In this document: one piece after another, positions 22,297 through 42,318 of the stretch
Numbering within the stretch: position 1 is the first letter of the stretch
Layout of the letters: each line of letters starts with the position of its first letter
Assembly (NCBI RefSeq): GCF_003675385.1
Contig: NZ_RCWZ01000004.1
Location: 372,001-436,000 of the forward strand
DNA length: 64,000 nt
Direction of reading: 5' to 3'
From: Mucilaginibacter kameinonensis
GTDB lineage: Bacteria > Bacteroidota > Bacteroidia > Sphingobacteriales > Sphingobacteriaceae
Program-made: the position numbers and the translations under genes
The notes under the pieces: generated by a model
The model's input: only the letters and a program-made list of their open reading frames with translations
Databases searched by the model: none
Told to the model about the DNA's origin: nothing

Positions 22297-22365
22297 CAAA
22301 TATCACGTGTTAGGCTTTGCGTTTCCTATTTGTATTTATCTATTTATTATACAATCTTACCATAA
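22297..22365 (-). promoter_or_regulatory. Promoter C with shared upstream motif (DUF3826-susCD)
   Basis: On the minus strand GATATTTG (22304-22297) matches TAnnTTTG except for its first base. Upstream lies a 33-base motif at 22333-22365 that matches the motif of promoter B at 26 of 34 aligned positions with one gap. The distance from the -7 box to the far motif edge is 61 bases, the same as in promoters A (26165) and B (42250). The fixed spacing supports an activator site. Predicted start of transcription is near 22290. Confidence 0.65.
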
Positions 22366-22518
22366 GCCATTTTTCCTGTAAAGCTAAATTTTTGTCAAAA
22401 GAAAATTACATTGTCACAAATAGGGTTTAATTAAAAATTGCTACTTTTAAAAATATAAACCGAAGCGGCGCATACCTAATCGCCTGCCGATCTGCTAACC
22501 TTTATTGATTTTTACAAA

Positions 22519-23412
22519 ATGAAGCCCCATTTTCTCAAGGTTGCGGTAAAACCGCAAAATTCATTCAGTATCAGGCATGATATTTTGCCCACCTTCAGGG
22601 GTATCTGGCATTATCATCCTGAGCTTGAATTACACTACGTAATAAAGGGCGAAGGGGTTAGGTTTATCGGTGATAATATCAGCAATTTTTCGCCGGGCGA
22701 AATTACTTTGCTTGGCGAAGCTTTGCCACACTGCTGGCGCTGCAAGGATGAATATTTTTTGCCCGATTCCGGATTGAATGTCGAAGTGATCGTGATTCAT
22801 TTTTTGCCCGACTGCCTTGGCCGTTACTTGTTAAATTTACCCGAAGCATACATGCTGCCCAAGCTTTTTGAAAAAGCCAAAAGCGGTATGGTAATTAAGG
22901 GCGAAGCAAAAACCGAACTGGCCAAACTGATGCGCCAGGCTGTTGAAGCAACCAACCTCGACAGGATCATTATCCTGTTATCGATACTGAAAGTACTGGC
23001 GGAAAATGAAGAATTTGAACCGATAACACTATCACACAGCGACTTCCACCAATCAAACGAATCGGATACCATCCGTCTCAATAAAGTATGTTCTTATACC
23101 CTGGCCAACTATAAGCAGGAGATCAGCCTGGAAAAAATAGCAGCTATCGGCAATCTTAGTGTTACCTCATTTTGCCGCTATTTTAAGCTGATGACCAAGA
23201 AAACTTATTTTGATTTTTTAACTGAGATCAGGATCAGTCATGCCTGCCGCTTTTTGATTGAGGACAAGCTGCCTACCGAAGTTTTGTGCTTTGAATGCGG
23301 TTACAACAATATCTCCAACTTTTACCGTCACTTTAAAAGGGTTACCGGGATGACACCGCTTGAATATAAACGCCGTTACATCAAAGGGCAAAAGCAGGCA
23401 GTTTCAGCTTGA
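22519..23412 (+). CDS. AraC-family transcriptional regulator
   Basis: The only convincing plus-strand gene: 297 residues, cytoplasmic. The N-terminal half is a cupin-type sensor (RGIWHYHPELELHYVIKGEG near 27-46, then FSPGEITLLGEALPHCWRC). The C-terminal part, about 195-290, is a double helix-turn-helix AraC domain (ISLEKIAAIGNLSVTSFCRYFK, then CFECGYNNISNFYRHFKRVTGMTPLEYKRRY). It is divergent from DUF3826-susCD and convergent with the aldolase gene. Its position amid the locus makes it the best candidate to bind the motif shared by promoters A, B and C; an oligosaccharide or monosaccharide product would be the inducer. Binding is inferred. Confidence 0.93.
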   Translation: MKPHFLKVAVKPQNSFSIRHDILPTFRGIWHYHPELELHYVIKGEGVRFIGDNISNFSPGEITLLGEALPHCWRCKDEYFLPDSGLNVEVIVIHFLPDCLGRYLLNLPEAYMLPKLFEKAKSGMVIKGEAKTELAKLMRQAVEATNLDRIIILLSILKVLAENEEFEPITLSHSDFHQSNESDTIRLNKVCSYTLANYKQEISLEKIAAIGNLSVTSFCRYFKLMTKKTYFDFLTEIRISHACRFLIEDKLPTEVLCFECGYNNISNFYRHFKRVTGMTPLEYKRRYIKGQKQAVSA

Positions 23413-23466
23413 TTTTTGTTAAGTTTTAAGTCCTTAGCCGGAAGTTCTAAGAGGTTGTTTTAAAAT

Positions 23467-23565
23467 GTAGAGACGCATCACATGCGTCTCCCACATGCAA
23501 ATCCTTGTTTTAATGAATTTACAAAGCGGCTTGTCCTATGGGAGACGCATGTGATGCGTCTCTAC
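23467..23565. repeat. Inverted repeat between convergent genes
   Basis: Two perfect 27-base complementary arms (23467-23493 and 23539-23565), each itself palindromic around GACGCATCACATGCGTC, separated by 45 bases. It fills the 199-base gap between the AraC gene and the aldolase gene, which converge here, so it could act as a two-way terminator. Similar GTAGAGACGCAT hairpins are known to me as dispersed repeats in Bacteroidota genomes. Confidence 0.88.
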
Positions 23566-23611
23566 GTAAAAACTTCTCAACAAATTTAAATAAGAACTTT
23601 CGACTCCAGAC

Positions 23612-24544
23612 TTAGTACTTCCCAATACCTATCTCGCTTCGCAACATTGTATAATTGCTATGCAGATCTTCGATCTTATTGCGGATAGCGGGTGAAAAAT
23701 AACCAACATCTCTACGGGTGGTAGTTGATATTTTCAAGCCCCGTTTGGTAAGATAATATTTTGCAATAACCGGGTATACATTGTGCATTACATCCATGTT
23801 TTCGGTTAAAAACTCCTGCACCATAGCAACCTCATGCTCATGCGATTCATCTACATAATGATCACATAACCAAACAATAAGCTCCGGAAAAAAATTCCCC
23901 TGGATACATGACAATCCCGCCGAACCCGCTTTCAACGATTCAACCGCGTGGACCATGTAAGCATCATACAAACCAAAGGCCGGGTTAATTTTACTTGCCT
24001 CCAGTTTCTGTTTTACCATATCCAGGTTCAGGCAGGTATCTTTATGATATATTATCCTGCGGGTAGCTGCAAAATGATGAAGCTGCTCTGCCGATAATAA
24101 CCTTTTGTAAGGCACCGGGCATTCATAGAAACCTAAAGGAATATTTTTGGTTTGATCAAACAGATCAAATACGCGGTCATTAAATACTGCGTCTGGTTCA
24201 TTGGCATCAGCCAATAAACTTGAGATGGCAATTACCGCCGAAGTACCTGTATCATAAACTCTTTTTACAAAATCAGCTTGCTTTTCAACCGGGCCGCCAA
24301 AGGTTCCAGTGGCAACTACGGGCACAGCGCCGTCAACAGTTTCAACCACGTGCCTGATAATGGCCAGCCGCTCCTCACCACTCAGTTCAAACATTTCGCT
24401 TGAGAGACAATTGGCAAACACACCGGCGGCGCCGGCGCGTAAATACATTTCGGTAAGGCGGGTCAGGGCTACATAATCAACCGCGCCGTTATCTTTAAAA
24501 GGCGTTAACATTACCGGGATAAAACCCTTTTTTGATTGTTCCAT
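23612..24544 (-). CDS. DHDPS/NAL-family aldolase
   Basis: A 310-residue cytoplasmic class I aldolase of the dihydrodipicolinate synthase/N-acetylneuraminate lyase family. The Schiff-base lysine is K168 in IIYHKDT and the catalytic tyrosine is Y140 in GFYECPVPY. The usual GTTGE/GSTGE carboxylate-binding motif reads NCLSSEMFELS (about 45-55), so the substrate is probably not that of housekeeping DapA. The gene lies 10 bases after a sodium symporter gene and behind promoter A, which shares its motif with the susCD promoter. A 2-keto-3-deoxy sugar acid from the pectin (Kdo, DHA or a deoxy-aldonate) is a plausible substrate. This is inference. Confidence 0.85.
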   Translation of the reverse strand: MEQSKKGFIPVMLTPFKDNGAVDYVALTRLTEMYLRAGAAGVFANCLSSEMFELSGEERLAIIRHVVETVDGAVPVVATGTFGGPVEKQADFVKRVYDTGTSAVIAISSLLADANEPDAVFNDRVFDLFDQTKNIPLGFYECPVPYKRLLSAEQLHHFAATRRIIYHKDTCLNLDMVKQKLEASKINPAFGLYDAYMVHAVESLKAGSAGLSCIQGNFFPELIVWLCDHYVDESHEHEVAMVQEFLTENMDVMHNVYPVIAKYYLTKRGLKISTTTRRDVGYFSPAIRNKIEDLHSNYTMLRSEIGIGKY

Positions 24545-24554
24545 TTGATGATGA

Positions 24555-26111
24555 TTAAACTGTTAACTGCCTGGTTTTGGTTAAAAATATTCCTGTTAAA
24601 AATATAGCGAGGGTACCTGCAACAATGATCATATTGGTATTGAGCGTGCTGCGAAGAGCGGCATATTGTTCCGGAATGAGCGATGGAAAAGTAAGCCAAA
24701 GGATCACTAAAACGCCAATAATACTGGCGATAATGGCTTCATGGTTGCGGGTTTGCCTGCTGATAATGCCCAGCAAAAACAAGCCCAGCATACCCGCGGC
24801 AAAAATGCCCGAAAGCTGCCACCACAAATCAAGGATACTCTTTACCCCTATCATGGCTATCCCAGCCGCCATACCCGCGAACCCGAAAAGTACGGTGCCA
24901 ATATGCAGGGCATTCAAAGTATTTTTGTCGTTGAGTTGTGGCTTAAAATACCTTTTATAGATATCGATGGTAAAAACAGTAGCTGAGGCGTTCATGCCCG
25001 AACTGATGGTACTCATAGCGGCCGATAAAATAGCTGCTACAATAACGCCAACCAGCCCTGCCGGGATTTTGGTAACCATAAAATGCGGCATGATCTTATC
25101 ACCATAATCGGCAGGGGTAAGTTTGCTTATAAATGCCGAAACCTCATTTGCCGAAGCCGTAGCAGGCAGACGCTCAATGGCTACCTGGTGTTTAAGGCTC
25201 AGGATCAGATCGGGATGCTGACTGTAGTAAGCATATAAGCATGAGCCTATTACAAAAAACAGAAAAGATGCAGGTACATAAATACCAACGCAAAGCCAAA
25301 CCGATTTGGCCGCCTGTTTCGTAGATGTTGCCGCATGATAACGCTGAATATAATTTTGATCCATCCCAAAATTGTTGAGATTGATAAAAAAACCATAGAA
25401 CAGGATCACCCAAAAAGTTGGTTCAGTAAGGTTGAGCGAAAAACTGCCCAGGCTAAACTTATGATCAGCTTTGCCAATTTCTACAATTTTATCAAAGCCG
25501 CCGGGGATACTGTTTATCACCAGGTAAATGATCAGCAAAGCTCCTAAAGTTTTAATGATAGCCTGTACCACCTCCGTCCAGATCACAGCCTTGATCCCTC
25601 CGGATACGGTATACAATATGATGGAGATGCCCATAACGATCATGATGGTTTTCATAGAGAGCCCGGTAAGCGCCTGCAAACTCAATGCAATGCCGAAGAA
25701 TACCGAACCCATACGGGCTATCTGCGTAAGCAAAAAACATATTACCGCGTAAACCCTTGCCCAGGGACCAAAGCGTTTTTCGAAATGGGTGTATGCCGAA
25801 ATATTACCGGTATTACGGTAAAATGGTATAAAATACTTAACCGCTATCCATGCCGCGAATGGCATGGATAAACTAAATACAAAAGCGTTCCAGTTACCTC
25901 CGTAAGCCTTGCCCGGTACGCCTAAAAAGGTGTTACTGCTTAAAAAAGTGGCATAAATTGATAAACCGATAGCCCAGCCCGGTATTAACCCAGAGGCGAC
26001 GGTGAACTGCTCGGCATTTTTATTTTTACGTGAAAAATAAAAACCAACCAGTACCATAGCTATAAGGTAAATACCTATAATCGCGAAATCTAACACGGGC
26101 AACACTTTCAT
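24555..26111 (-). CDS. SSS-family sodium:solute symporter 1
   Basis: A 518-residue inner-membrane protein with about 13 hydrophobic segments, typical of the SSS (SLC5-like) family. It starts FAIIGIYLIAMVLVGFYFSRK and carries SLSIYATFLSSNTFLGVPGKAYGG and GGIKAVIWTEVVQAI, characteristic of the family. It would import a sugar or sugar acid with sodium. It forms a two-gene unit with the aldolase, so the cargo is probably the aldolase substrate or its precursor. Its promoter carries the regulon motif. Sialic-acid-type carriers and aldolases often pair like this, but no sialic acid genes are seen here. Confidence 0.9.
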   Translation of the reverse strand: MKVLPVLDFAIIGIYLIAMVLVGFYFSRKNKNAEQFTVASGLIPGWAIGLSIYATFLSSNTFLGVPGKAYGGNWNAFVFSLSMPFAAWIAVKYFIPFYRNTGNISAYTHFEKRFGPWARVYAVICFLLTQIARMGSVFFGIALSLQALTGLSMKTIMIVMGISIILYTVSGGIKAVIWTEVVQAIIKTLGALLIIYLVINSIPGGFDKIVEIGKADHKFSLGSFSLNLTEPTFWVILFYGFFINLNNFGMDQNYIQRYHAATSTKQAAKSVWLCVGIYVPASFLFFVIGSCLYAYYSQHPDLILSLKHQVAIERLPATASANEVSAFISKLTPADYGDKIMPHFMVTKIPAGLVGVIVAAILSAAMSTISSGMNASATVFTIDIYKRYFKPQLNDKNTLNALHIGTVLFGFAGMAAGIAMIGVKSILDLWWQLSGIFAAGMLGLFLLGIISRQTRNHEAIIASIIGVLVILWLTFPSLIPEQYAALRSTLNTNMIIVAGTLAIFLTGIFLTKTRQLTV

Positions 26112-26164
26112 GCGTTAATCGGGTAGTACGGTAAAAATTAGTATTGTGGTTTAAAATTGTATAA

Positions 26165-26233
26165 CAAATTTAACAACCCACAGTTAAGCTTTACTGTAAT
26201 ATTTTCTCCTGCTATTGTAGGATATTATCACCA
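26165..26233 (-). promoter_or_regulatory. Promoter A with shared upstream motif (symporter-aldolase)
   Basis: TAAATTTG on the minus strand (26172-26165) matches TAnnTTTG exactly and lies about 54 bases before the ATG. The motif at 26200-26233 (begins TATTTTCTC, ends GATATTATCACCA on the plus strand) agrees with that of promoter B at 28 of 35 positions when one flanking base is included. Box and motif are 28 bases apart in both. It is in the 336-base gap 26112-26447, whose other half is repeat R1b. Confidence 0.72.
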
Positions 26234-26277
26234 ACGAAATAAATAAAGTCCCCTCGGCTGACTGGAGGTTTTAAAAA

Positions 26278-26401
26278 TTCCCCTCTTGAGAGGGGGCGCG
26301 TAGGAACGTGTGATAGCAGGGGTGTGTTTCTGCTATATACTTATCAAAGCAGAAACACACCCCTCCACCCCTCTCAAGAGGGGAATCGCACAATCCGGCG
26401 C
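26278..26401. repeat. Palindromic repeat family R1, copy b
   Basis: Perfect outer arms TTCCCCTCTTGAGAG (26278-26292) and CTCTCAAGAGGGGAA (26371-26385). Inner arms GGGGTGTGTTTCTGCT and AGCAGAAACACACCCC. It ends in AATCGCACAATCCGGCGC followed by six T. Best preserved of the three copies. It lies between the GH2 gene and the symporter promoter, so it may end the GH138-GH95-GH2-GH78 transcript. Confidence 0.9.
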
Positions 26402-26447: not shown

Positions 26448-28847
26448 TTAACGCTTGCCCTGAATAACTAACCGGGCCGGTTGTAATCCATCTGCCGTAG
26501 CGACTATAGTAATTTCGCCCGCAACTGATTTAGATTGAATAATTGCCAGCCCCAAGCCATTAAACAAATGGTGCTGATCAGACACAAACGGATCCAGATC
26601 TGTTTGTGAACCATTATCCAAACCCTTCAAAATCCCTTGCCCCGTTACTTTAAACTTTACCAGTTGATTAGCATCGGGCACGGGCACATTGTTTTTATCC
26701 AAAACAGACACGGTAATATATGACAGATCTTTGCCATCGGCATTAATCTTATCCCGATCTGCTTTTAACTGTATTTTATAAGGCTCGCCTGCTGTAACCA
26801 CCTGCGTGGTCATGACTACTTTACCGTTACGACGGGACACCGCTTTTAACACTCCCGGTTCATATTTAACACTCCACATGACATGCAGGTCATCGCCGTT
26901 CTTTTTCTTAACCGCTATCGATTTACCGTTTAAAAAAGCTTCCACTTCATCGGCATTATTGTAATAGGCCCAAACATCAATTATCTGTCCAGGCTTCCAG
27001 TTCCAGTGCGGTAACAGGTGTAAAACAGGCTTGGTTGTCCACTCGCTTTGGTACATGTAATAAACATCTTTGGGGAAGCCGGCAAGATCAACAATGCCAA
27101 AATATGAACTGCGGGCAGGCCACAGGTATGGGGTTGGTTCGCCGATATAATCGAAGCCTGTCCACACAAAAAGGCCTGAAAGGAAATCATGTTTTTTGAT
27201 GATCTTCCAGGTTTCCTCGTGCGTTGAACCCCAATAGGCCGAAACATTATCGTAAGATGATACCGTAAAATCGGCATTACCATCTTTTAAAGGAGTTTTA
27301 CCATCTTTTGGCCAGCGCCTGACACTATCCGAGGGCATATCATAATGTCCCCTTGTTGCCAGGGCCGACATATTTTCGGTGCCGATAAACTTCTGACCGG
27401 GATAGTTTTTTTGAAAATCGGCATATACTTCCTGGTGGTAATTTAAGCCAACCAGATCAAGCGCGCCCGACTGATAAATAAAATTCTTTTTAGGGTCGGC
27501 ATCACTCAAGGCCGATGTAACCGGCCTGGTATTATCCAACTGCTTTACAATTTTAACCAGCTCGCGGCCTATGCTCACGCCGGTACTATCAAACTGCTCC
27601 CTGATCTCGTTTCCAATACTCCAGGCAAAAACGGACGGGTGGTTACGGTCGCGTAAAACCTGGTCTTGCAAGTCTTTCACATGCCATTCATCCCAATCTT
27701 CGTGATAGTCGTGTTTGCTCTTTTTCTTCTTCCACATATCAAAGGCTTCATCCATCACCAGCAAACCCATTTTATCGCACAGATCAAGTAACTCCGGGGC
27801 TGGCGGATTGTGTGAGGTACGGATGGCGTTGCAACCCATTTCTTTTAAGATCTGCAATTGCCGCTCTATAGCACGTGTATTAACAGCCGTGCCCAAAGCC
27901 CCCTGATCATGATGCAGACAAACACCAAGAATCTTCATTGGCTCACCATTTAGACTGAAACCTTTATCCGCGTCGAAATTAAAATACCTGATGCCTGTAG
28001 TTGTAACATAATCATCAACCACTTTGCCCCCCGCCATCAACTGCAGCTTTACTTTATACAGGTAAGGATGCTTTACCGACCATAGTTGAGGATTGCTTAG
28101 CCGGATACTTTGCTGAATTACAGTGTCGGTTATCGGAGTTATGACAGATCCAACAACCTTACGCTTATCATCCAAAACAACGGCTTTAAGCTTATACTTT
28201 GAGTTGATGGAACCCGGCAAAACTGTACTAATAGTGATCTCTGCCTTTTGATGATCAACCTGCGGTGTAGTGATAAATGATGACCATTGCGGCAGATGAA
28301 TTTTATTGACGGTCGTCAGCCAAACATTACGGTAAATACCAGAACCGGTATACCAGCGCGAATTAGGCTGATCGCTGTTATCCACCCTCACAGCTACAAC
28401 ATTTTGTTGTGTGCCGAATTGGAGGTAAGGCGTTAAATTATACATGAACGAGATATAGCCGTTAGGCCGTTTGCCTAAATAATGGCCATTGATCCAAACC
28501 TCGCTGTTATGAAAAACACCGTCAAAATCAATCAAAATAATTTTAGCTTTTGATGATGCGGGGATAGAAAAACTTTTACGGTACCAGCCAATGCCGGCTG
28601 GCAATCCACCTTCGGCCTGTGTGGAGGGGTTTTTACTGTCGAATTTCCCTTCGATGCCCCAATCATGCGGAAGGTCGAGTTTCCGCCAATGACTATCATC
28701 ATATTTTATCGCGTTAGCTGTTGGATCATCGCCTAAAAAAAACTTCCACCCGGCATTAAAGCTCGTTGTTTGGCGTACGTTTTGGGCAGATACAAAACCG
28801 GCCGTGAAAAGCACCAAACACAGCGTATATAGATAACGTAGCCTCAT
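26448..28847 (-). CDS. GH2 family glycosidase (GalB-like architecture)
   Basis: A 799-residue secreted GH2 enzyme removing a beta-linked galactose or uronic acid. Signal peptide about 1-21 (GFVSAQ). Sugar-binding domain (about 30-185, with GWYRKSF and VWINGHYLGKRPNGY), Ig-like domain (about 190-290), TIM barrel (about 293-580; TSHNPPAPELLDLCD), and C-terminal Ig-like domains with DUF4982 features. The acid/base is E414 in SIGNEIRE and the nucleophile is E491 in IGTENMS. It follows the five-bladed propeller gene with no spacer. If that propeller is GH137, the pair equals a split form of the fused GH137-GH2 enzyme BT0996, whose GH2 part is a beta-glucuronidase; that link is inferred. Confidence 0.88.
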   Translation of the reverse strand: MRLRYLYTLCLVLFTAGFVSAQNVRQTTSFNAGWKFFLGDDPTANAIKYDDSHWRKLDLPHDWGIEGKFDSKNPSTQAEGGLPAGIGWYRKSFSIPASSKAKIILIDFDGVFHNSEVWINGHYLGKRPNGYISFMYNLTPYLQFGTQQNVVAVRVDNSDQPNSRWYTGSGIYRNVWLTTVNKIHLPQWSSFITTPQVDHQKAEITISTVLPGSINSKYKLKAVVLDDKRKVVGSVITPITDTVIQQSIRLSNPQLWSVKHPYLYKVKLQLMAGGKVVDDYVTTTGIRYFNFDADKGFSLNGEPMKILGVCLHHDQGALGTAVNTRAIERQLQILKEMGCNAIRTSHNPPAPELLDLCDKMGLLVMDEAFDMWKKKKSKHDYHEDWDEWHVKDLQDQVLRDRNHPSVFAWSIGNEIREQFDSTGVSIGRELVKIVKQLDNTRPVTSALSDADPKKNFIYQSGALDLVGLNYHQEVYADFQKNYPGQKFIGTENMSALATRGHYDMPSDSVRRWPKDGKTPLKDGNADFTVSSYDNVSAYWGSTHEETWKIIKKHDFLSGLFVWTGFDYIGEPTPYLWPARSSYFGIVDLAGFPKDVYYMYQSEWTTKPVLHLLPHWNWKPGQIIDVWAYYNNADEVEAFLNGKSIAVKKKNGDDLHVMWSVKYEPGVLKAVSRRNGKVVMTTQVVTAGEPYKIQLKADRDKINADGKDLSYITVSVLDKNNVPVPDANQLVKFKVTGQGILKGLDNGSQTDLDPFVSDQHHLFNGLGLAIIQSKSVAGEITIVATADGLQPARLVIQGKR

Positions 28848-29969
28848 TTATTTGGATTTGCTTTTCTTAACAGGCGGCGCTACAAAGTTGAGCCCGCTTT
28901 TACCCTGATCTTTTGATACAGCTACGGCTATACCACGCTGATCGGCTTTGTTTACGGCGCAATAAAAATGATAAACCATGCCCTTATACTTCACCACGCA
29001 CGATTTATGGGCGAACATATTATCGTAAGGCTCGGACGATTGAATGAGCTTCTCCCCTGTCCAGTCTGTCCAGTGCACCAGGTCGTACGAGCAGGCAAAG
29101 CGGTTAAACACGCCAGAGTCACCGGTTTTCCAAAAAGCTCCGAAATAGAACATTACATACACATTTCCTATTTGCTGGATATATGGATCACCCGTGATAC
29201 CGTCGCCATGATTCAATACAGGGTCTTTGCCAAAACGTTTCCAGTGCAGCATATCGTCTGATACGGCCATGCCAATCCGCTCGGCACCACGTTTTTTATT
29301 TACGCTGTCGCCATTGGCATTGTAATACATAATGAAAGGGTGACCTGTCAGCTTCTTTTTATCCCAGATCACGGTTTGTTTGTATTGCGTATGGTTATCC
29401 CACCAACTTACATCTTTATCAATACTCGATAATACCGGATGATCTAAACCTTGCCACTCATGTACCGTACCCGGATCTTTATCGGTAGAAGCTACGCTTA
29501 TAGATAGCAGACCTTTTTCATACCCCCTGCTTTGTCCGCCGAAGTACGACAACCAGTACTTACCATTGTATTGCTGCAATTTATATGAGCCGCCCCATTT
29601 ATAATCCTGCAAACCTACGTAACCCGCCTTTTGGTTATTATCCCATTTAGTGGTATCGTCCGAAAACGACAGGATCCGGCCACAGGTTTTCCAGTGCAGC
29701 AGGTCCTTACTATCAGCCAGCCAGGTTTCATAACCCCTGCCATTGAAAATGATATAACTCATATACCAGCTATCGCCCTGGCGAAAAACCGTGGGGCAAT
29801 CGGCCTTTTGGCTATTATCTTCAGGTGCTATCACCAGGCCATATTTGTAAGGTGTTTTTACCTGTTCATAAATATCCTTCATCACCTTTTCGGGTACATC
29901 CTGGGCGTGTGCCTTCAGCATTAAAAAAACGCAAATGAGGAATGCAGATGATTTGAAAATGTGTTTCAT
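28848..29969 (-). CDS. Secreted five-bladed propeller glycosidase, possibly GH137 beta-L-arabinofuranosidase
   Basis: A 373-residue protein with signal peptide (MLKAHAQ, about 1-22). Repeated blade motifs of the type YE-x2-LA-x-SKDLLHW (about 80-93), YEKGLLSISVASTD (150-163) and AERIGMAVSDDMLHW (229-243) define a five-bladed propeller. A GH43 acid of the EGP or EAP type is not found, which argues against GH43. E151 and E230 are 79 residues apart, close to the spacing of the E159/E240 pair I recall for GH137 of BT0996, a beta-L-arabinofuranosidase of RG-II. Family assignment is therefore a hypothesis. It abuts the GH2 gene and follows GH78 by 14 bases. Confidence 0.6.
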   Translation of the reverse strand: MKHIFKSSAFLICVFLMLKAHAQDVPEKVMKDIYEQVKTPYKYGLVIAPEDNSQKADCPTVFRQGDSWYMSYIIFNGRGYETWLADSKDLLHWKTCGRILSFSDDTTKWDNNQKAGYVGLQDYKWGGSYKLQQYNGKYWLSYFGGQSRGYEKGLLSISVASTDKDPGTVHEWQGLDHPVLSSIDKDVSWWDNHTQYKQTVIWDKKKLTGHPFIMYYNANGDSVNKKRGAERIGMAVSDDMLHWKRFGKDPVLNHGDGITGDPYIQQIGNVYVMFYFGAFWKTGDSGVFNRFACSYDLVHWTDWTGEKLIQSSEPYDNMFAHKSCVVKYKGMVYHFYCAVNKADQRGIAVAVSKDQGKSGLNFVAPPVKKSKSK

Positions 29970-29983
29970 GGTCTGTTTAAATA

Positions 29984-32746: not shown

Positions 32747-32755
32747 GTTAATATT

Positions 32756-35700
32756 TTATTGCATTTCAATACCCGAAACAGCCAAACCATCGGCCTTAAT
32801 ACCTGTGATTATCAGTTTATAATTACCCGCGTTGATACTTGTGCCTGTATTGGTTGCAACCGTGCCCGATTTATTTTTGGCAACCGGTTTAAAACTCAGT
32901 TCTTCCTCCTTCATCACCGTACCATCGGCGGCCAGTAATTGCATTTTTGCCGTAAAAGTTTGATTACTCAGGTTATAATATTTTATGCGTAAGGCATATA
33001 CATCTGCAACTCCCGGTGTTAACGCGAATGCCACACTGCCGCCTGCCACACTGCTAAATTTAATTACTTTCTTTCCGTTCAGGGTGTCGGCTTTTAAGCC
33101 CTCGCCTTTTATTTCAGCCGTCTCCGCCTTATAGCTTACGGTTTTACGAAGATCAGTAGCCGGTTGCAACGAAGTAACAGGCAGTACCACTACGGTGTAC
33201 ATGAACCTGCCTTTATTTTCGCCCAAGGTTACTACATCAGCCTTTTTAAAACGCTTCCTGTAAACAGACAGTTGACGCCGCCCATCGGCATCATTTTTTA
33301 CAAATAAACCGGTATTTTCATAACCGGCAACCCAATCTGTCTTGTCCGATGCTGACTTGTCCATGGCAACATATACGTCAGCATCAGCATTTAAAGTAAA
33401 CGAGCCTGTTTGCCCTTGAATCGAATTTGCTGTACTTATCCAATCGGCACCGTAAAATATGGGGGGCAGATCATTAAAAGTTACCCCGACATCGGTATAT
33501 TGCTTTTGGCCGATATCCATCCAGCTTTTTATTACCCATTTGTTATTGCCCTGTAATTGGCTAATTATTCCTTTGCCCGACTGATTTGGCTTGGCTGCTT
33601 TATTTAAAGTACCTATAGCAATGCCTGATATGATAGCTTCACCGGCCGCAGCGTTTGGAAAAGATATGGTTAGCATCCCGCCGGTAACATGAGCAGTAAT
33701 ATTTTTCTTAAGCGCCTTAGTATAGCCTGCTTCTTTCCAGATATCCAGATTGCGGATCATGGTTTTACCATTTACTGCCACATCAAACAAACGCCAGCCT
33801 GAGCAGTCTATCCCGCCGCCCGTGCCGTACCAGGGTTCAGCAAAATATAGTTCGATGCGATAATCGCCATCCGGCACCGGGAAGTTGAACTTCAACTTAT
33901 CCAAACCATACCTGAAAGTCCGGAACAAAGCCTCATCGGTGGTATTGCTGATTCTGTCAAAAGTGCGCTGCTGACTGGCAAAAAATGCAGGCATACCGGG
34001 GTAATCATCCGTCCATGATTTGGAACCGGGTTGTTGTTTATTATCCTGATGTTTGTCGGCCATCCAGGTATTACCGTAGGTGTCGGTATAATCCGGTTCG
34101 CCGCAATTGAGGCGGTACAAATAGTTGTAACCTGCTTCCGGTTTCAGAATGACGGGATTCCCTTTAAGCAGATGCGGTGCCGATGGCAGGTGGTTCAGCA
34201 TCACCTCATCATGAGCTACCTGCTTACCATTAACATATCCCACAGCATACAGCACATTGTATTTAATATCCACCCCATCCCACTGAAAATGTGTGCCGAC
34301 GCCCTGTCGTTTTCTTCGGCCTAAAGATTCATGATTGACATCATTAAAAAGCTCAACCTCATCGCAGTTGGAATAAACGATTATGCTATCCTTTTTGCCC
34401 GGAGCCAACCAGCGGTTTGGCCAGGTATGCGATGCAATATAAACCATCGGCTCCTTATTCTTTGGGGCATAATTGGCCCGGTACATGTAAAAAGCATCGG
34501 TTGGCTGGCCCCATGGCGTAAACAGGCCTTTATAATTAACAGGGCCAACCCTGTCCAATTCACGCTGACCTTCGCCGCCCTGCGTTCTTCCAGGATTTTC
34601 ATGTGAGTATAACAGCCATTGGAAATGTCCCGCTACCTGATCTTTTACAGACTCGGCCAGGCGGACTTTAGTTTCCATCAGCTGGGTCATGCGGTCTTCA
34701 CTTAGCGGGCCGTTTGCATCAAACGGCCCCTCGGTATGCAAACCAAGGCTTCGCCAGGCGCCATACTCGCCTACTAAGATTTGTTTTTTCAGATCTTCAC
34801 CATAAGTAAGCGGATTACCGCCATAAGTGCCCGTCCAGTTTTGGGGCACATCCCAATCGGTACCCTCGCCGCCGTTACAGGTTGTTATTTTGCGTTGCGA
34901 TGAAGCCGTAGGATCAAACTTGCGGATAATGTCGCTGCATTCCCGGGCAAAATCGGCAGGTAATTTACTTTCGTTTTGTAAGCCCCACAATATTACCGAT
35001 GGATTGTTACGACGCTCTTTTATCCAATCAACCAATAAAGCTTTATAATTGGCCCTGAACTCAGGCGAATCATACCAGATATGCGCCGAATACTGCGGCC
35101 ACCACAAAATGCCCAACTTATCCCAATATTGCTGATAGGCGAGATTATGAGGCTGATGCGCATCCCGGAAAGCATTAAAACCGGCGGCTTTTACCTGCAT
35201 TACCCGGGCTTTGATCTCCTGCGCTTCAAAAGCCTGGCTTTTACCCATCAGGTGTTCATACTCGGCAATGCCATTGATAAACACAGGTTTCCCGTTAAGA
35301 TAAAAACGATTATCGTTATTATTCCTGCCAATGGGCCAGCTGATCCACCGGATACCATAAGGTGTTTGCGTTCTGTCAATCAATTTTCCATCAGCCCAAA
35401 CCTCTGTTGTTACATGATACAGGTAAGGTTTCTCCAGCGACCATAGCTGCACGTTTTTAACATCGGCAAATTGTTGACTTACTGTATTAACTTCACCGGC
35501 TTTTAATGTTTTGTTTGTTTTTGCTTGCGCGATAGTTTTGCCACCGGCATCAACCAGACTGTTTATTACGGTTATTGCAGATGGCTTGCCGTTGTAGTTT
35601 TTAACTTCAGTTTCGAGGTTGAGTGTAGCTGATTTTTCGCGAACAGTGGTATCATTCCAGATATGTACGCCAAAAGGTTCAATCCTGATAGCGTTAGTGA

Positions 35701-36574
35701 CCATCAAATGCACCGGCCTGAAAATCCCCATCGGCTGCGAACCCTCTGAAAAACCCGGATCATCCGAGCAGGCCCCGCAAACCCAGGGCAAATCTTTAAT
35801 AAACGAAGGATGATCGGCCCTAACGCATAGCAGGTTTTGTTTGCCTGCTTTGATAGCATCTGTTACATCAATAGTAAAAGACGTACGTCCGCCGGCGTGG
35901 TATCCAACCTGCTTTCCGTTGAGCCAAATAGTAGCATAAGAACCTACCCCCTCAAACCACAGGAAATACCGCTTATCATTTTGTTTACTTTCAAGCGGGA
36001 ATATTTTGCGGTACCAGGCAGTGCCGTGCCTGTTGCCATGCTTCAGCCGGCGATAGCCTCCGTAAGTGTCCCAGTTATGAGGTACGTTTACCGTTTGCCA
36101 TTGGGTATCGTTAAAACCAGTTTGTTCAAAACCGGCATTAGCTTTTGGATTGGTATCATCGGCGATGCTTTTCCAATTGGTATTTAATAAAACATCTTTA
36201 GGCTGTGCAAAAAGGTAACTATTGGAAAAAAGGAGTAGAAGCAGCAGCGAGGCGATCAATTTTAAAAAAGGAAAACACAGCCCTCCCTCTTTCCCAAGAG
36301 TAATAGCCCATGAATTGACAATTCCCTCCCCTGGGAGGGGCGCGTTAGGATTGCGTGTTGGCAGGGAGGGGTTTATGCGCCTTTCTGACGACAATACATC
36401 TCGCCGAACCCCCTCCCTACACCCTCCCAGGGGAGGGAATCGCACAACCCAACGCGCTTTAAACTCCTCTATAGCCTTATGGGCTACTACTCTCTCAAAA
36501 GGGCAATCACACAGCGCCAAAACACATTGCGCTTTCCCTGCTATCCCGCAGTAATATTTTTGCGCTTCGCCCAT
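32756..36574 (-). CDS. GH2 glycosidase with malectin domain; 5' end invaded by repeat
   Basis: An open frame of 1272 codons. The GH2 core is clear: sugar-binding domain (about 130-300), Ig-like (about 300-410), TIM barrel with acid/base E535 in WGLQNES and nucleophile E603 in LVGEYGAW. It is followed by DUF4982-like and malectin-type domains (RLNCGEPDYTDTYGN) and a C-terminal carbohydrate-binding sandwich. The Sec signal core (LIASLLLLLLFSNSYLFAQ) sits only at about 106-124. Residues 1 to about 100 are encoded by palindromic repeat R1c and have no protein character. No ATG lies between the repeat and the signal core. The native start appears lost; the true start is uncertain, and secretion may be impaired or rely on internal initiation. 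Confidence 0.8.
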   Translation of the reverse strand: MGEAQKYYCGIAGKAQCVLALCDCPFERVVAHKAIEEFKARWVVRFPPLGGCREGVRRDVLSSERRINPSLPTRNPNAPLPGEGIVNSWAITLGKEGGLCFPFLKLIASLLLLLLFSNSYLFAQPKDVLLNTNWKSIADDTNPKANAGFEQTGFNDTQWQTVNVPHNWDTYGGYRRLKHGNRHGTAWYRKIFPLESKQNDKRYFLWFEGVGSYATIWLNGKQVGYHAGGRTSFTIDVTDAIKAGKQNLLCVRADHPSFIKDLPWVCGACSDDPGFSEGSQPMGIFRPVHLMVTNAIRIEPFGVHIWNDTTVREKSATLNLETEVKNYNGKPSAITVINSLVDAGGKTIAQAKTNKTLKAGEVNTVSQQFADVKNVQLWSLEKPYLYHVTTEVWADGKLIDRTQTPYGIRWISWPIGRNNNDNRFYLNGKPVFINGIAEYEHLMGKSQAFEAQEIKARVMQVKAAGFNAFRDAHQPHNLAYQQYWDKLGILWWPQYSAHIWYDSPEFRANYKALLVDWIKERRNNPSVILWGLQNESKLPADFARECSDIIRKFDPTASSQRKITTCNGGEGTDWDVPQNWTGTYGGNPLTYGEDLKKQILVGEYGAWRSLGLHTEGPFDANGPLSEDRMTQLMETKVRLAESVKDQVAGHFQWLLYSHENPGRTQGGEGQRELDRVGPVNYKGLFTPWGQPTDAFYMYRANYAPKNKEPMVYIASHTWPNRWLAPGKKDSIIVYSNCDEVELFNDVNHESLGRRKRQGVGTHFQWDGVDIKYNVLYAVGYVNGKQVAHDEVMLNHLPSAPHLLKGNPVILKPEAGYNYLYRLNCGEPDYTDTYGNTWMADKHQDNKQQPGSKSWTDDYPGMPAFFASQQRTFDRISNTTDEALFRTFRYGLDKLKFNFPVPDGDYRIELYFAEPWYGTGGGIDCSGWRLFDVAVNGKTMIRNLDIWKEAGYTKALKKNITAHVTGGMLTISFPNAAAGEAIISGIAIGTLNKAAKPNQSGKGIISQLQGNNKWVIKSWMDIGQKQYTDVGVTFNDLPPIFYGADWISTANSIQGQTGSFTLNADADVYVAMDKSASDKTDWVAGYENTGLFVKNDADGRRQLSVYRKRFKKADVVTLGENKGRFMYTVVVLPVTSLQPATDLRKTVSYKAETAEIKGEGLKADTLNGKKVIKFSSVAGGSVAFALTPGVADVYALRIKYYNLSNQTFTAKMQLLAADGTVMKEEELSFKPVAKNKSGTVATNTGTSINAGNYKLIITGIKADGLAVSGIEMQ
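36297..36518. repeat. Nested palindromic repeat, R1 copy c, inside the 5' end of a GH2 frame
   Basis: The core (36321-36457) has perfect 19-base outer arms at 36321-36339 and 36422-36440, an inner pair AGGGAGGGG/CCCCTCCCT, and the R1 end motif AATCGCACAACCCAACGCGC. Outside it, AGAGTAATAGCCCAT (36297-36311) pairs with ATGGGCTACTACTCT (36479-36493), 14 of 15. The following CTCTCAAAAGGGCAATCAC...GCGCC (36492-36518) resembles a decayed R1 right end. So one R1 copy seems inserted in an older one. Confidence 0.82.
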
Positions 36575-36577
36575 CTT

Positions 36578-39391
36578 TTACAATTGTTTCAGATCAGCAT
36601 CGAAGCGATAGCTTTTACCTTTTTGAGTTTCGATATCAACTGTTTTTCCGGCATAATTTAAGCGACAGGTTTTGCCCAATTTTGAAAGTACCTGCAGGTT
36701 TTTCAAGCGGCCATTTTGCCATTCAAAATCCAGCACAAAGCCGCCCCTTGCACAAATACCTTTAATGCTACCTTGTGGCAAAGCAGTTGATAAGGCTGGC
36801 AGCAATTCTATAGCATCGCCCTGACTTTGTAAAAGCATTTCGGCTAAACCTGCCGCGCCGCCAAAATTTCCATCAATCTGAAATGGTGGATGTGCATCAA
36901 ACAGGTTATGATAAACGCCGCCCTTCTCTTTACCCGAACTTACATCGGCTGGCGAAAGCAGTTTGGTTAACATGAGATAAGCATGATCGCCCTGGTGCAT
37001 CCGCGCCCAGATATTTACCTTCCAGGCAATGCTCCAGCCGGTACCTTCATCGCCACGGTATTTCATAGATTTTTCGGCGGCATTCAATAGTTCCGGCGTT
37101 TTAAAAGTGATATCTGTTCCGGGATAAACGCCCCACATGTGCGAAACATGACGATGAGTATCAGTGGTATCATCTTTATCTTCCATCCACTCCTGCAACT
37201 GGCCATACCTGCCAATTTTATTGGGTGCTATCTGGCTGTATTTCAACTTCAGCGTATCGGCAAAAGCCTTATCAATGTTAAGCACTTTAGCTGCTTCGAT
37301 GCAGTTTTTAAACAAATCGCGGATGATCTGGTGATCCATCGTTGGCCCGGCAACCAAACCGCCATGCTCGGGCGAGTTAGACGGCGTGCTGATGAGGTAT
37401 CCTGTTTTAGGATCTTTAACCAAAAAGTGTACGAAAAACTCCGCGGCACCTTTCATTTCGGGATATGCCCTTTTTTGCAGAAAATCCTTATCGCCGGTGT
37501 ATAAATAATGCTCCCATAACTGGTGGCAAAGCCATGCAGCCCCGCTAACCCAGATCCCATGATTGGAGGCGTTAACAGGTGCCGCCCCACGCCACAGATC
37601 GGTATTATGGTGCAATACCCAACCCGGGGCACCGTAATGCTCAACCGCGGTTTCATGACCCGTTTTTGAAAGATCATCGACAATACTAAAAAACGGCTGA
37701 CTACAAGCCGATAAGTTGAGTACCTCAGCAGGCCAGTAATTCATTTGAAGGTTGATGTTGGTGGTAAACTTGCTACCCCAGGGCGGCGTAAGCAGGTTGT
37801 TCCACAAACCTTGCAAGTTTGCGGGCCCGTTGCCCGGTCTTGATGACGAGATCAGCAAATACCGGCCATATTGCGCATACAAGCTGATAAAAGAAGGATC
37901 AAGTGATTGGCCAAATTTCAGGATCCTTTCATCTGTCGGCAGCTCCGCATTTTCGCCCTTGCCTAAATCGATAGAAAATGTATTGAAATACCTTTGATAA
38001 TCTTTAATGTGAGCAGCTTTGATAGCCGCATAAGTCTTGTGCGTTATTGCTTCTATTTGAGCTTTGCAGATAGCCTCGGGATTGCCCGATACATCATGAT
38101 AGTTTTTAAAATTGGTTGCCGCTGTAAGGTAAAAAGTAGCTTCGTTAGCTCCTGTGACTGATATATTCTTCGGACTTACCACAACCTTACCAACCGCGAC
38201 CTGTACATACAGGTAGCTTACGCCACGCAAAACACCACTTTTTATTTTTAAAGATAGCGCCAGCGTATGGTCATCAACTTTACGGATAACATAGTTTTTT
38301 TGCAGACTACTAAGCAAAGCTTTCACGCCGATTTTGCCCGGTTTATCGGCAGTTAAATGTACCGCCATCACCTGATCCGGTGCACTGCTGAAATACTCGC
38401 GACTGTAAGTAACACCATCTGCCTTATAACTCACATGGGCGTTAGCATTAGTAAGATCAAGGTCGCGTTTGTAATCCGTAGCCTCCTGCTTTGGAAATTG
38501 CAGGTACAAATCAGCGAAGGGCTGATAATCGGCATTGTAGCGGGGATATGCAGGTGGGTTATCATCCTGTATAAAATATTTCCACTGTCCGGCAAGGCTA
38601 ATCGCATCATTTTCACTTCCTTCGGGATAAACTGATAAAGTTTTAGCGTTGCTCGTAAAGCCACCCTTATCATAAAAGTTGATTACCTGTACTGCAAGCC
38701 TATTCTCACCGATATGTATTTTATTTGCCGGGATAATGTATTTCCGGTAGGCGTTACCCGAAGTTGTGCCGATGTAATCTCCATTAAGCCAGGTGCGGTC
38801 GATATCTCGTATCCTGCCTAAACTGATCACCACGTTCTTCCCTTTCCAATCAGCCGGAACATTAAAATGTTCGATGAACCAAACTGCGCCATCAACTCCT
38901 TCAAACCCTGGCGAGACTTCCCATCCCTGTTCTGTCGGCAAATTGATAGTTTTAAAATTATCATCATGAAACAGCTCGTCTTGCGGCAAATGGTACGCAC
39001 CTATCATCTTAAACCACCTTGCAGAATCAGCAGCATAAGTAGCTTCATCGCTCTTCGTACCCATAAAATGTTGTTGGGCCATGGCCTCTGCTTCGGCTTG
39101 TTTACCATCAGCAAGGAGCTTACGGATGGGCTCCAAATATTTCACGGCACCTTTGCGGTTATAGTCGCGCGGGCCGCCTGTCCACAGGCTTTGTTCGTTA
39201 TACTGGATATGGTCTTCGGTAACGCCGCCATAAATCATGCCACCAATGCGGCCATTACCTATGGGTAAGGCATCCGTCCATTTTTGAGCGGGCTGTTTAT
39301 ACCAAAGCTTAAGGGGTTGCTGGGCAAAAGCCTGTACAACTCCAAACATTAACATAGCGATATAAAAACTTTTCCTGCTATTCATAAACAT
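36578..39391 (-). CDS. GH95 alpha-L-fucosidase/alpha-L-galactosidase with inserted domain
   Basis: A 937-residue secreted GH95 enzyme. Signal peptide about 1-24 (QAFAQ). The N-terminal GH95 sandwich begins WYKQPAQKWTDALPIGNGRIGGM and is interrupted after about residue 110. An extra jelly roll of about 170 residues (GWEVSPGFEG, AVWFIEHFNVP, DRTWLNGDYIGTTSG) occupies about 120-285 and looks like a GH2-type sugar-binding domain. The sandwich then resumes (YKRDLDLTNANAHVSYKADG). The (alpha/alpha)6 barrel follows with the catalytic asparagine motif NINLQMNYWPAE at 545-556. In RG-II degradation a GH95 enzyme removes alpha-L-galactose; fucose is the alternative. Its start overlaps the GH138-like stop by one base. 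Confidence 0.92.
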   Translation of the reverse strand: MFMNSRKSFYIAMLMFGVVQAFAQQPLKLWYKQPAQKWTDALPIGNGRIGGMIYGGVTEDHIQYNEQSLWTGGPRDYNRKGAVKYLEPIRKLLADGKQAEAEAMAQQHFMGTKSDEATYAADSARWFKMIGAYHLPQDELFHDDNFKTINLPTEQGWEVSPGFEGVDGAVWFIEHFNVPADWKGKNVVISLGRIRDIDRTWLNGDYIGTTSGNAYRKYIIPANKIHIGENRLAVQVINFYDKGGFTSNAKTLSVYPEGSENDAISLAGQWKYFIQDDNPPAYPRYNADYQPFADLYLQFPKQEATDYKRDLDLTNANAHVSYKADGVTYSREYFSSAPDQVMAVHLTADKPGKIGVKALLSSLQKNYVIRKVDDHTLALSLKIKSGVLRGVSYLYVQVAVGKVVVSPKNISVTGANEATFYLTAATNFKNYHDVSGNPEAICKAQIEAITHKTYAAIKAAHIKDYQRYFNTFSIDLGKGENAELPTDERILKFGQSLDPSFISLYAQYGRYLLISSSRPGNGPANLQGLWNNLLTPPWGSKFTTNINLQMNYWPAEVLNLSACSQPFFSIVDDLSKTGHETAVEHYGAPGWVLHHNTDLWRGAAPVNASNHGIWVSGAAWLCHQLWEHYLYTGDKDFLQKRAYPEMKGAAEFFVHFLVKDPKTGYLISTPSNSPEHGGLVAGPTMDHQIIRDLFKNCIEAAKVLNIDKAFADTLKLKYSQIAPNKIGRYGQLQEWMEDKDDTTDTHRHVSHMWGVYPGTDITFKTPELLNAAEKSMKYRGDEGTGWSIAWKVNIWARMHQGDHAYLMLTKLLSPADVSSGKEKGGVYHNLFDAHPPFQIDGNFGGAAGLAEMLLQSQGDAIELLPALSTALPQGSIKGICARGGFVLDFEWQNGRLKNLQVLSKLGKTCRLNYAGKTVDIETQKGKSYRFDADLKQL

Positions 39392-42144
39392 CAGTTAAAA
39401 AGCCAGCGTAAATCTTTGATATTACCTTCGTTGCTTAAGCCGGCATCGTACACCGGCACATTGGCCTCCGCATCAACAATGCCCAAAACCAAGGCCGCAC
39501 CTTTACCCAAGGTAAGCGTATTTGAACCCGCTTTAAAGGTGTAGGTATGGATATTTACAGGCGGCAAGCCATCAATTTGAATGGCATTGGCAATCTTGAT
39601 ATCTGCCTGACCATAATCGTTAGCGCTGGCATCTGTTTCCAGTTGTGGTTCGGGCAGGTATTGAGGCATTTTACTGTTGAAAAAGCCAACCAATACCTTT
39701 ACCGGTTTATCATTTTTAAAGCTGATGGTTGTGCCATTTTTATGCTGATCAGCCTTAGATAGCTTTGCACCTTTTAAACCCGCCAGTTCTTTCGCGATAT
39801 TTTTGATTGCCGCTGATGTATCGGCAAATACCATCTCACCGGCGTTGACTTGATAGCTATTATTTTCAAACTTCACAGGCGCATCTTTCAAAACTGCAAC
39901 CTCTTTTTGCTTTTGCTGTGTTTGAGGCGATTTCAGCGAATCAATATTGCGTTTAAAATTGTCAAGTTCCTTTTGGTAAACTGGCAAAAGCTCGGCCCAG
40001 GTTTTCATTTTGGCATCGTTGCCCCCAACCGGGATTTTGCGCTGCTTGGTTTGCATGCTGTTGGCATACAGGTAAGTGTTTTCGGTTAATTTCACCAGTT
40101 GTTTATAATAATCCAGACTGGTTTGCAGTTCGGGCAAAGCCTTTTCAAGATCGGCAACATTATCCGAATATTTATAGCGCAATACCCATAATGCCGCTTT
40201 TGCCTTGTAGGCATAGTTATTGGCCATGGCGTTGTAGCAATACATGTCGTTTTTTAGGCGGTTAAACTCCGCTTTATCTTTAGTTACCTTTGCAGACGCT
40301 TCGTTAATAGCCTCAACCGCCTTTTGTCCCTGTACTATTACGCTATCGATCACCTTAACCGGCGTTTCGCCGATATGCGGCTGGTGTTTCCATTCTCTCT
40401 CGGCATATTCGCTCATCATTTCACCAACCGGGCCCTCTGAATTGTACAGCAGCGAAAACAAACCATATTTTTCGGGATTAACCAACTGGCTCATCAGCAT
40501 GCCCAAAGTCATGGTTTGGCGGTTGCCATCGGTAATACCAAAGCGGCGCAGCAGTTCGGGCGAGATATTGCCCGATTGCTCATATGCTTTCAAAACAGCC
40601 TCGCCATGAGCCTTATCGCATCCATATTTATCCGCCAACTGCTTTGCCCAATAACTTATTTCGCCGACCCTGTCCCGCTTGCTATCCCAGGCATAGCGCG
40701 ACCATGCTTTATACCAAATCCAGTCCCTGTCTAATTGCAATAAGCGCTCGCCGCCGGTATTATCGGCAGTATAAGGCCAATCCCAGTATGATGCCTGCGG
40801 ATACAAGTGCAGGGCATTAGCTCCGTAAATTTGATGCATAGCCTGTACACATTTCTGAATAAAATCGGCCGAGCCATAGCGGAAAGGCTCCAGGTTGGCC
40901 ATGATATGCACATTCTCTATCTGTACGGTTCCAATACTACTCAGCGTACGATGCAGATCGGCCCATGGGCCATGCGGTTCATAAGTAGTCAAGGCCTCGC
41001 CGTTATACTTTGCTTCGGTGTATAAATTTGAATAAAGTGGCTTAGCATATTTCATCACAGCAGGGGCGTCCGTGTCATGTGCACGGAGCACAATCGGCGG
41101 TTCATCAGTGCGGCCCAAAGCTTTTAATCCGTCCTTTACCCCCGGAATAATGGTTTGGGTAAACCAGTCAATATCATCCTGACCAACACCTTCCATGGCC
41201 TCTCCCAACGTAACCAATAAACCAACGTGAGGGTATTTTTGTACAAAGGCTGCGATAGATTTGCGGGTATAATCGGCTATGATGGGTACAATATGGCGGT
41301 TCCTGTCCTGCGTTTTCAGGTTGTTTTTTTCGGCGAAGGGTTTGGATACGATGATATTATAAAATCCCTGAATAAGCCAGATGCCGCGCTTATCAGCTTC
41401 ATCGGCCAAAAAGCTATAGATCTCTTCATTTTTCTTAAAAGTAGCATCATCAACTTCCACGGCATAAGGATATTCCTTTACCCGCACCAGCGAGGCAAAG
41501 GGGTGGCCGTTCCACAAATACAGAGAGTTCATGCGGTTATACGCCAGCGAATCCAGGTAACGGATCCATAAAGCTTTATCATAAAACCATGGGAAATTTT
41601 GAGGGGTGTAAGGGTACTCATAAGTACCGCGACCAGGAAGTAGCGCAGGTTTTTGCACCCCGATACAGGTCCCTCGCAAAACCATTTCGGGCTGATCATG
41701 CAGATTGATATTTACCGGAAGTTTTCTATTTAAGGCGATCCTATCCGCCAGTTCAAGACAGCCGTAAAGCGCACCGGAATTATCAGCACCCGCTATCAAT
41801 AGTTTATTTTTTAGGCCGTTATCACTGATGATAAAACCCTCTTTTCCGGGACGATTACTTGCAGTACCAGCCAGTTTCTTAACCGGGGCATCCGTAAGTA
41901 AACCAACAACTATAGCATTGGCTGAAGGAAGTGTGCCTTTATATGCTTGTTCGGTAACCGAATACCCGGCATGTTGCAAAGCCAGCGTTAGCTTTTGTAC
42001 GCCATAACTTATCCTTGCGTGATGCTGGGGCAAAGTAACGATGGTAATTTTTTTAAATTGGTTTTGAGCGTGTGAAGTTGAATAAAAACAAAAGATCAGC
42101 GTAAAAAACAGCAACAGGTAACGGTTGAACATCTTCATTTTCAT
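39391..42144 (-). CDS. GH138-like alpha-galacturonidase (alpha-glucuronidase-type fold)
   Basis: A 917-residue secreted enzyme. Signal peptide about 1-27 (STSHAQ). An N-terminal alpha/beta domain like those preceding GH20/GH67 barrels (about 30-150) leads into a TIM barrel (about 155-500; NRMNSLYLWNGHPFASL, GIWLIQGFYNI, LLVTLGEAMEG). A helical region and a C-terminal beta-domain complete it. Candidate catalytic acids E315 (LGEAMEG) and E377 or E383 (NLYTEAKYNGE) have a spacing near that recalled for the GH138 enzyme BPA0997 (E294/E361), which removes galacturonic acid from RG-II chain A. It heads the operon driven by promoter B and is coupled to GH95. GH138 is a reasoned guess, not searched. 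Confidence 0.65.
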   Translation of the reverse strand: MKMKMFNRYLLLFFTLIFCFYSTSHAQNQFKKITIVTLPQHHARISYGVQKLTLALQHAGYSVTEQAYKGTLPSANAIVVGLLTDAPVKKLAGTASNRPGKEGFIISDNGLKNKLLIAGADNSGALYGCLELADRIALNRKLPVNINLHDQPEMVLRGTCIGVQKPALLPGRGTYEYPYTPQNFPWFYDKALWIRYLDSLAYNRMNSLYLWNGHPFASLVRVKEYPYAVEVDDATFKKNEEIYSFLADEADKRGIWLIQGFYNIIVSKPFAEKNNLKTQDRNRHIVPIIADYTRKSIAAFVQKYPHVGLLVTLGEAMEGVGQDDIDWFTQTIIPGVKDGLKALGRTDEPPIVLRAHDTDAPAVMKYAKPLYSNLYTEAKYNGEALTTYEPHGPWADLHRTLSSIGTVQIENVHIMANLEPFRYGSADFIQKCVQAMHQIYGANALHLYPQASYWDWPYTADNTGGERLLQLDRDWIWYKAWSRYAWDSKRDRVGEISYWAKQLADKYGCDKAHGEAVLKAYEQSGNISPELLRRFGITDGNRQTMTLGMLMSQLVNPEKYGLFSLLYNSEGPVGEMMSEYAEREWKHQPHIGETPVKVIDSVIVQGQKAVEAINEASAKVTKDKAEFNRLKNDMYCYNAMANNYAYKAKAALWVLRYKYSDNVADLEKALPELQTSLDYYKQLVKLTENTYLYANSMQTKQRKIPVGGNDAKMKTWAELLPVYQKELDNFKRNIDSLKSPQTQQKQKEVAVLKDAPVKFENNSYQVNAGEMVFADTSAAIKNIAKELAGLKGAKLSKADQHKNGTTISFKNDKPVKVLVGFFNSKMPQYLPEPQLETDASANDYGQADIKIANAIQIDGLPPVNIHTYTFKAGSNTLTLGKGAALVLGIVDAEANVPVYDAGLSNEGNIKDLRWLFN

Positions 42145-42249
42145 TCGTATTAAAACAGGCTTACCAAAGCCCGTTTCGTTGATTTGAATGAAGGCTTTAG
42201 TATCTTAAATGATACCCAGGGTTTTGAACTTAATTGGTTGTATAGTATT

Positions 42250-42318
42250 CAAAAATATCAGTGCAAGGCTGCAATTTCATCTGATATTTTCTCTATCTAC
42301 TATACGATATTATCATCA
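42250..42318 (-). promoter_or_regulatory. Promoter B with shared upstream motif (GH138-GH95-GH2 operon)
   Basis: TATTTTTG on the minus strand (42257-42250) matches TAnnTTTG exactly, about 106 bases before the ATG at 42144. The 34-base motif at 42285-42318 (plus strand begins TATTTTCTCTATC, ends GATATTATCATCA) begins 28 bases from the box, as in promoter A. Two similar blocks, GATATTTTC (42283) and GATATTATC (42306), are 23 bases apart in direct orientation, as expected for AraC-type binding. The motif lies in a 216-base gap (42145-42360). Confidence 0.75.

Follow-up and report, generated by a model that had tools for sequence, protein, structure and literature searches.

The window, a stretch of 64,000 nucleotides from Mucilaginibacter kameinonensis, carries three minus-strand operons. 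Operon A starts with the gene for a DUF3826 protein (21416..22081, minus strand). Genes for a SusC-like TonB-dependent transporter (18123..21308), a SusD-like protein (16302..18119) and a pectate-lyase PelZ-like protein (14576..16237) also belong to this operon. All are on the minus strand, and the PelZ-like assignment is below the NCBIfam cut-off. On the same strand are genes encoding a DUF6298 protein (11212..14370), an apiosidase-like (GH140-type) enzyme (9520..10902) and a BT_1020-like protein (6741..8654). The latter two are markers for use of rhamnogalacturonan II (RG-II). The DUF6298 protein had no sequence match among solved structures. Operon B (minus strand) encodes a sodium:solute symporter (24555..26111) and an aldolase of the dihydrodipicolinate-synthase superfamily (23612..24544), whose nearest solved relatives include YagE. 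Operon C (minus strand) begins with a GH138 enzyme (39391..42144), matched by phmmer to BPa0997 (6HZF, 6HZE) with an E value of 4e-301. It continues with a GH95 enzyme (36578..39391) and a segment encoding a GH2 enzyme with a malectin domain, GH78, GH130-like and GH2 enzymes (26448..36574). From the predicted GH138, apiosidase and BT_1020-like proteins, we take this to be an RG-II utilisation locus. RG-II is the most complex plant pectin. To our knowledge, how bacteria co-ordinate the many enzymes that attack it is poorly known. A gene for an AraC-family regulator of 297 aa, with an N-terminal cupin and a C-terminal double helix-turn-helix (HTH), is on the plus strand (22519..23412).

The initial annotation placed a shared motif at 22333-22365, 26200-26233 and 42285-42318, upstream of operons A, B and C, respectively. 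We find it at these positions. In every case the motif edge lies 61 bases from the edge of the -7 box, as described (22365 and 22304; 26233 and 26172; 42318 and 42257). The pairwise identities had been misassigned: 28 of 35 was given for A and B, and 26 of 34 with one gap for C and B. Our recount is 28/35 for B and C, 24/35 for A and C, and 19/35 for A and B. The alignment of C with B needs no gap over 35 bases. Similarly, the proposed repeat of GATATTTTC and GATATTATC at 23 bp is replaced, on the basis of column similarity, by two 18-bp half-sites at 21 bp.

All three promoters are on the minus strand. Read in the sense of the genes, site A is GGTAAGATTGTATAATAAATAGATAAATACAAATAGGAA (minus strand, from 22361), site B is GATAATATCCTACAATAGCAGGAGAAAATATTACAGTAA (minus strand, from 26229) and site C is GATAATATCGTATAGTAGATAGAGAAAATATCAGATGAA (minus strand, from 42314). 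The divergent araC and DUF3826 genes flank site A, which is 157 bases ahead of the start codon of araC. Its distal half-site, GGTAAGATTGTATAATAA (22344..22361), is conserved beside AraC orthologues. The promoter-proximal half-site, GATAAATACAAATAGGAA (22323..22340), is 21 bp from the distal one, and the -7 box of the DUF3826-SusC-SusD operon is GATATTTG (22297..22304). For site B, upstream of the symporter-aldolase operon, the corresponding elements are GATAATATCCTACAATAG (26212..26229), GAGAAAATATTACAGTAA (26191..26208) and TAAATTTG (26165..26172). For site C, upstream of the GH138-GH95-GH2 operon, they are GATAATATCGTATAGTAG (42297..42314), GAGAAAATATCAGATGAA (42276..42293) and TATTTTTG (42250..42257). 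All of these elements are on the minus strand. The boxes had been described as TAnnTTTG-like. Their placement at 61 holds in all three promoters, but the box of site A is one base off TAnnTTTG. The TGATATTTG of this box is retained in most same-genus orthologues. Separately, a long inverted repeat (CCCCTCTTGAGAGGGG ... CCCCTCTCAAGAGGGG, with GCAGAAACACACCCCT enclosed by the arms) occupies positions 26260-26390 of the window, in the gap that separates the end of operon C from site B. It resembles a mobile repeat element of intergenic regions.

We compared the similarity of the three sites with that found by free sliding in 500 dinucleotide shuffles of the upstream regions. Sites B and C were above chance (30/39; the best shuffle reached 27). 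Sites A and C (26, maximum 28) and sites A and B (23, maximum 26) were within chance. Because only the B-C pair exceeds the shuffles, similarity within the window is insufficient for site A. Taken alone, the window is suggestive, and makes membership of site A plausible rather than proven. The reality of the motif is confirmed by independent data: a genome scan, the fixed position of TTTG and co-occurrence with the regulator.

A whole-genome scan had been proposed in the initial annotation. With up to 3 mismatches allowed, a degenerate pattern matched the 7.33-Mb genome at exactly A, B and C, and scattered sites were absent, as that annotation had anticipated. The pattern was built from A, B and C, which are recovered by construction; the informative part is the absence of other matches. 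A reversed-pattern control gave 0 matches in the same 7.33 Mb. With a matrix of 42 sites that included A, B and C, these three scored 41-48 bits and the next position in the window scored 10. Weak matches in the window, such as one near 56,940, were discarded on this basis.

The 42 sites were selected by homology of the downstream gene alone and then stacked. TTTG begins at offset 61 in 39/42 sites, and any other offset between 29 and 109 has it in at most 1/42. Among the remaining sites, which lay outside the stack, 13 non-duplicate ones likewise have TTTG at offset 61. Conserved columns occupy offsets 0-17 and 21-38, while offsets 40-56 of the spacer carry almost no information across the 42 sites. 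Since the spacer is nearly uninformative, the match is attributable to constraint and not to a recent shared ancestor. The half-site is 18 bp (GATAAnATCSTAYAnTAR) and is directly repeated every 21 bp, so that the whole site spans 39 bp. Comparison of columns gave a single peak: a shift of 21 scored 1.4 and the runner-up -15.8, and 1/20,000 column permutations reached the value of the peak. The same comparison shows no palindrome, and a palindromic operator was dismissed.

The Bacteroidota promoter consensus is TAnnTTTG with a -33 element (PMC7366714). Among the 42 stacked sites, no separate -33 element (TTTG) is conserved; the proximal half-site, whose end is 18 bp upstream of the TAnnTTTG box, occupies the -33 position. 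Counting from a start presumed to lie about 6 bases past the box, the half-sites would fall at about -70 to -53 and -49 to -32. These positions are close to the geometry of araI1-I2 in E. coli. Such an arrangement suggests an AraC dimer acting as a class II activator. Because the site is upstream of the -7 box and replaces the -33 element, an activator is expected rather than a repressor.

We next consider the distribution of the site. Orthologues of the AraC protein are 85-98% identical within the genus and about 60-76% identical in other genera. A broader pattern was used to scan 301 genomes of the family, with orthologues defined by an E value of at most 1e-118. The site was present in 96/117 genomes with an orthologue and 11/184 without (Fisher p 2e-44), although this p-value is inflated by kinship among the genomes and the contrast within the genus is the safer figure. 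There, the site occurs in 22/23 genomes with the orthologue and 1/46 without. Co-occurrence alone leaves room for another co-inherited factor because the whole RG-II locus travels together. In 21 genomes with an orthologue, the site was not found at 2 or fewer mismatches, and in some of these (e.g. G093, G028 and G174) no site accompanied by the standard box lies near AraC. Many apparent misses are diverged sites, recognisable and with TTTG at the same offset (20/24 orthologues of 59-71% identity).

The motif also adjoins the araC gene itself. It does so in 30/30 of the closest loci, pointing away from the gene. Among named loci, an AraC-adjacent site with TTTG in place was found in 70/80, and in 70/73 of those with at least 60% identity. 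In other genomes, 7 AraC homologues with 36-38% identity, also among the named loci, had no site beside them. The named relatives belong to Mucilaginibacter, Pedobacter, Hufsiella and Desertivirga and, in the Cytophagales, to Spirosoma, Larkinella, Flectobacillus and Arsenicibacter. Hence, AraC-adjacent sites reach beyond the Sphingobacteriales. In Flectobacillus, and in a Cytophagales MAG, araC again has DUF3826-SusCD on one side and the symporter-aldolase pair on the other, with sites at both promoters.

The same RG-II operons are preceded by sites across genera of the Sphingobacteriales. In most genomes a site is found upstream of the DUF3826-SusCD orthologues. Orthologues of GH138 have one in G048, G025, G011, G219, G213, G165, G234 and G270, and those of the symporter-aldolase pair in G113 and G084. 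Elsewhere, the PelZ-like and DUF6298-apiosidase orthologues have sites of their own (G048, G025, G162, G192, G011, G094, G013, G081, G108 and G211), as do the GH78-GH130-like-GH2 orthologues in G011. The presence of DUF3826 and DUF6298 downstream of sites across genera ties both families to RG-II use. By comparison, the part of the window from about 43 to 64 kb (43912-64000) contains no AraC site. Its genes include those for altronate and mannitol-type dehydrogenases, galacturonate, GH88, pectinesterase and GH28 functions, a second SusCD pair and a GntR-type regulator (58580). Given that they lack the site, these genes probably form a separate regulon.

The AraC protein encoded at 22519 matches HTH_18 (E 1e-18) and AraC_binding (24.5 bits, cut-off 21.1). 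Its NCBIfam matches are far below cut-offs, indicating a weak sequence relation to characterised members. The predicted model has a mean pLDDT of 86 and a MarA-like double HTH, with recognition helices at residues 215-226 and 265-276. It aligns with the DNA-binding domains of MarA and AraC (Z about 13). In the same model, the sensor domain is structurally similar to the regulatory domains of RhaR, AraC and BgaR (Z 12-14; RhaR 14.3, AraC 12.4). From the fold and the regulon only, we infer that the protein binds a sugar or other inducer.

Paralogues of this protein inform its mode of DNA recognition. Ten of them, with 46-50% identity, have the same arrangement near their own genes, mostly with the 61-base offset (the sites of L164-L174). 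At these sites the distal box, GATAA, is unchanged and the second box is GTTRGA instead of CSTAYA. In the proteins, residues 215-226, which form the first recognition helix, hardly change and HTH2 differs at C257, C260, N263 and V/I265. AraC-type proteins are usually read as touching the distal box with HTH1 and the proximal box with HTH2. The same assignment probably applies here, although the codivergence is not statistically independent because one clade split underlies it. The clade offers a natural experiment in how an AraC protein changes DNA specificity. Paralogues encoded by the M. kameinonensis genome itself (30-43% identity) were also considered as binders of A, B and C. None has a site and -7 box beside its own gene.

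Together, these observations make it very probable that the AraC protein encoded at 22519 activates all three RG-II operons via tandem operators A, B and C. The support comes from the sites themselves, which have a fixed geometry, are conserved ahead of the same operons and co-occur with the AraC orthologue; binding and activation are deduced from these features. The initial annotation had put forward an activator site common to the three operons and this protein as its binder. Co-occurrence, adjacency and codivergence all argue for that proposal.

In the mechanism we favour, each site would be a tandem operator of this protein. A dimer would lie on one face of the DNA, with one monomer per 18-bp half-site. 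The first HTH would contact GATAA and the second TAYAnTA, with the half-sites 21 bp, or two helical turns, apart. As no -33 element is conserved, the promoters should require the bound activator to bring in polymerase, as in class II activation. One-component sensors respond to signals in the cytoplasm. Hence, the inducer would be an RG-II-derived sugar or sugar acid that has crossed the inner membrane. Its binding to the cupin domain would turn on the three operons together. Operon A would provide surface capture and side-chain enzymes. The products of operon B would carry a keto-deoxy sugar acid across the inner membrane and cleave it, and operon C would provide the GH138-GH95-GH2-GH78 enzymes. 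Our guess, from the symporter and aldolase of operon B, is that the inducer is Kdo, Dha or a similar keto-deoxy sugar acid.

Other explanations for the sites are less attractive. Similarity between A and B, or A and C, would alone be consistent with chance resemblance or a general promoter signature of the genome, since both values are within the shuffles. This explanation is extremely improbable given just three sites in 7.3 Mb, their absence from 45/46 same-genus genomes lacking the AraC orthologue, and conservation across orders with fixed spacing. A second possibility is that AraC binds the sites but mainly represses, or has a dual role like that of E. coli AraC and represses its own gene from site A. 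AraC-family proteins can repress in the absence of inducer, and the location of site A between divergent genes would suit such a role. However, the site is upstream of the -7 box, in the place of the -33 element, and covers neither the -7 box nor the start. Moreover, B and C have no divergent araC gene. We therefore regard repression as the main role, or a dual role, as unlikely.

The sites might instead belong to a hybrid two-component system (HTCS). These regulators of Bacteroides have an AraC-type output domain and control pectin loci, the HTCS_Rgu regulons among them, and their predicted motifs are direct repeats averaging 21 bp apart (PMC3878776). The RG-II locus of B. thetaiotaomicron, BT0977-1030, has such a protein, BT0981 (PMC3243724), for which a binding motif could not be predicted (PMC3878776). 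One HTCS is assigned to that locus, and two further RG-II-responsive loci have no associated regulator (PMC3243724, PMC3878776). However, an HTCS sits in the membrane, senses periplasmic oligosaccharides and contains kinase and receiver domains, whereas the protein encoded at 22519 is a one-component regulator with cupin and HTH domains only. Across two orders, the site adjoins the gene for this one-component protein, and it diverges together with its HTH2. With no HTCS-type Y_Y_Y match in the window, and the nearest on the contig about 64 kb outside, an HTCS is a very unlikely binder.

The preferred reading, activation by the one-component AraC protein, has clear precedents. Class II activators of the AraC/RhaS type, such as E. 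coli AraC at araI1-I2 and RhaS, likewise combine a cupin sensor with a double HTH. They also use direct half-sites of about 17-18 bp at 21 bp, with the proximal one at -35/-33. The system described here differs from them in half-site sequence, in its Bacteroidota promoter, which has TAnnTTTG but lacks a conserved -33 element, and in its RG-II-related regulon and probable inducer. Another one-component AraC protein of the Bacteroidota exerts positive control over a dispersed polysaccharide regulon, with a rare monosaccharide as proposed effector. Its polysaccharide is different, and we found no binding motif in the searched passages of its description. In the open-access literature searched, we found no description of a one-component AraC regulator for RG-II, its motif or its regulon. 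The AraC family and the operator architecture are already known. The regulator, the motif and the placing of an RG-II regulon under a one-component AraC protein may be new.

More broadly, and tentatively, the RG-II programme of Sphingobacteriales and Cytophagales may be under a cytoplasmic one-component AraC protein that reads an RG-II-specific monosaccharide (e.g. Kdo, Dha, aceric acid or a breakdown product). This would replace the HTCS sensor of periplasmic oligosaccharides found in gut Bacteroides, and the paralogue clade would have switched specificity through HTH2 and the second box alone. A candidate regulator, operator, promoter geometry and regulon are defined together across two Bacteroidota orders, giving a directly testable switch that fills a gap in RG-II regulation. 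The motif can help to locate missing RG-II genes, and it links DUF3826 and DUF6298, families of unknown function, to RG-II use.

Two observations concern the gene content of related loci. In many relatives (L107:1374-3011, L109-L113, L115, L116, L119 and L121), the putatively AraC-controlled operon has an additional gene of about 1.6 kb ahead of DUF3826. In L107, the product is 545 aa with an L-fucose-isomerase C-terminal domain. The gene is absent from the corresponding place in the window. Elsewhere, L069, L073 and L074 (from G240, G180 and G121, respectively) carry a distant SusC-type gene, 25% identical to that of the window and far from the AraC locus. This second SusC-type gene has a matching site, with TTTG at 61, and is a possible extra member of the regulon.
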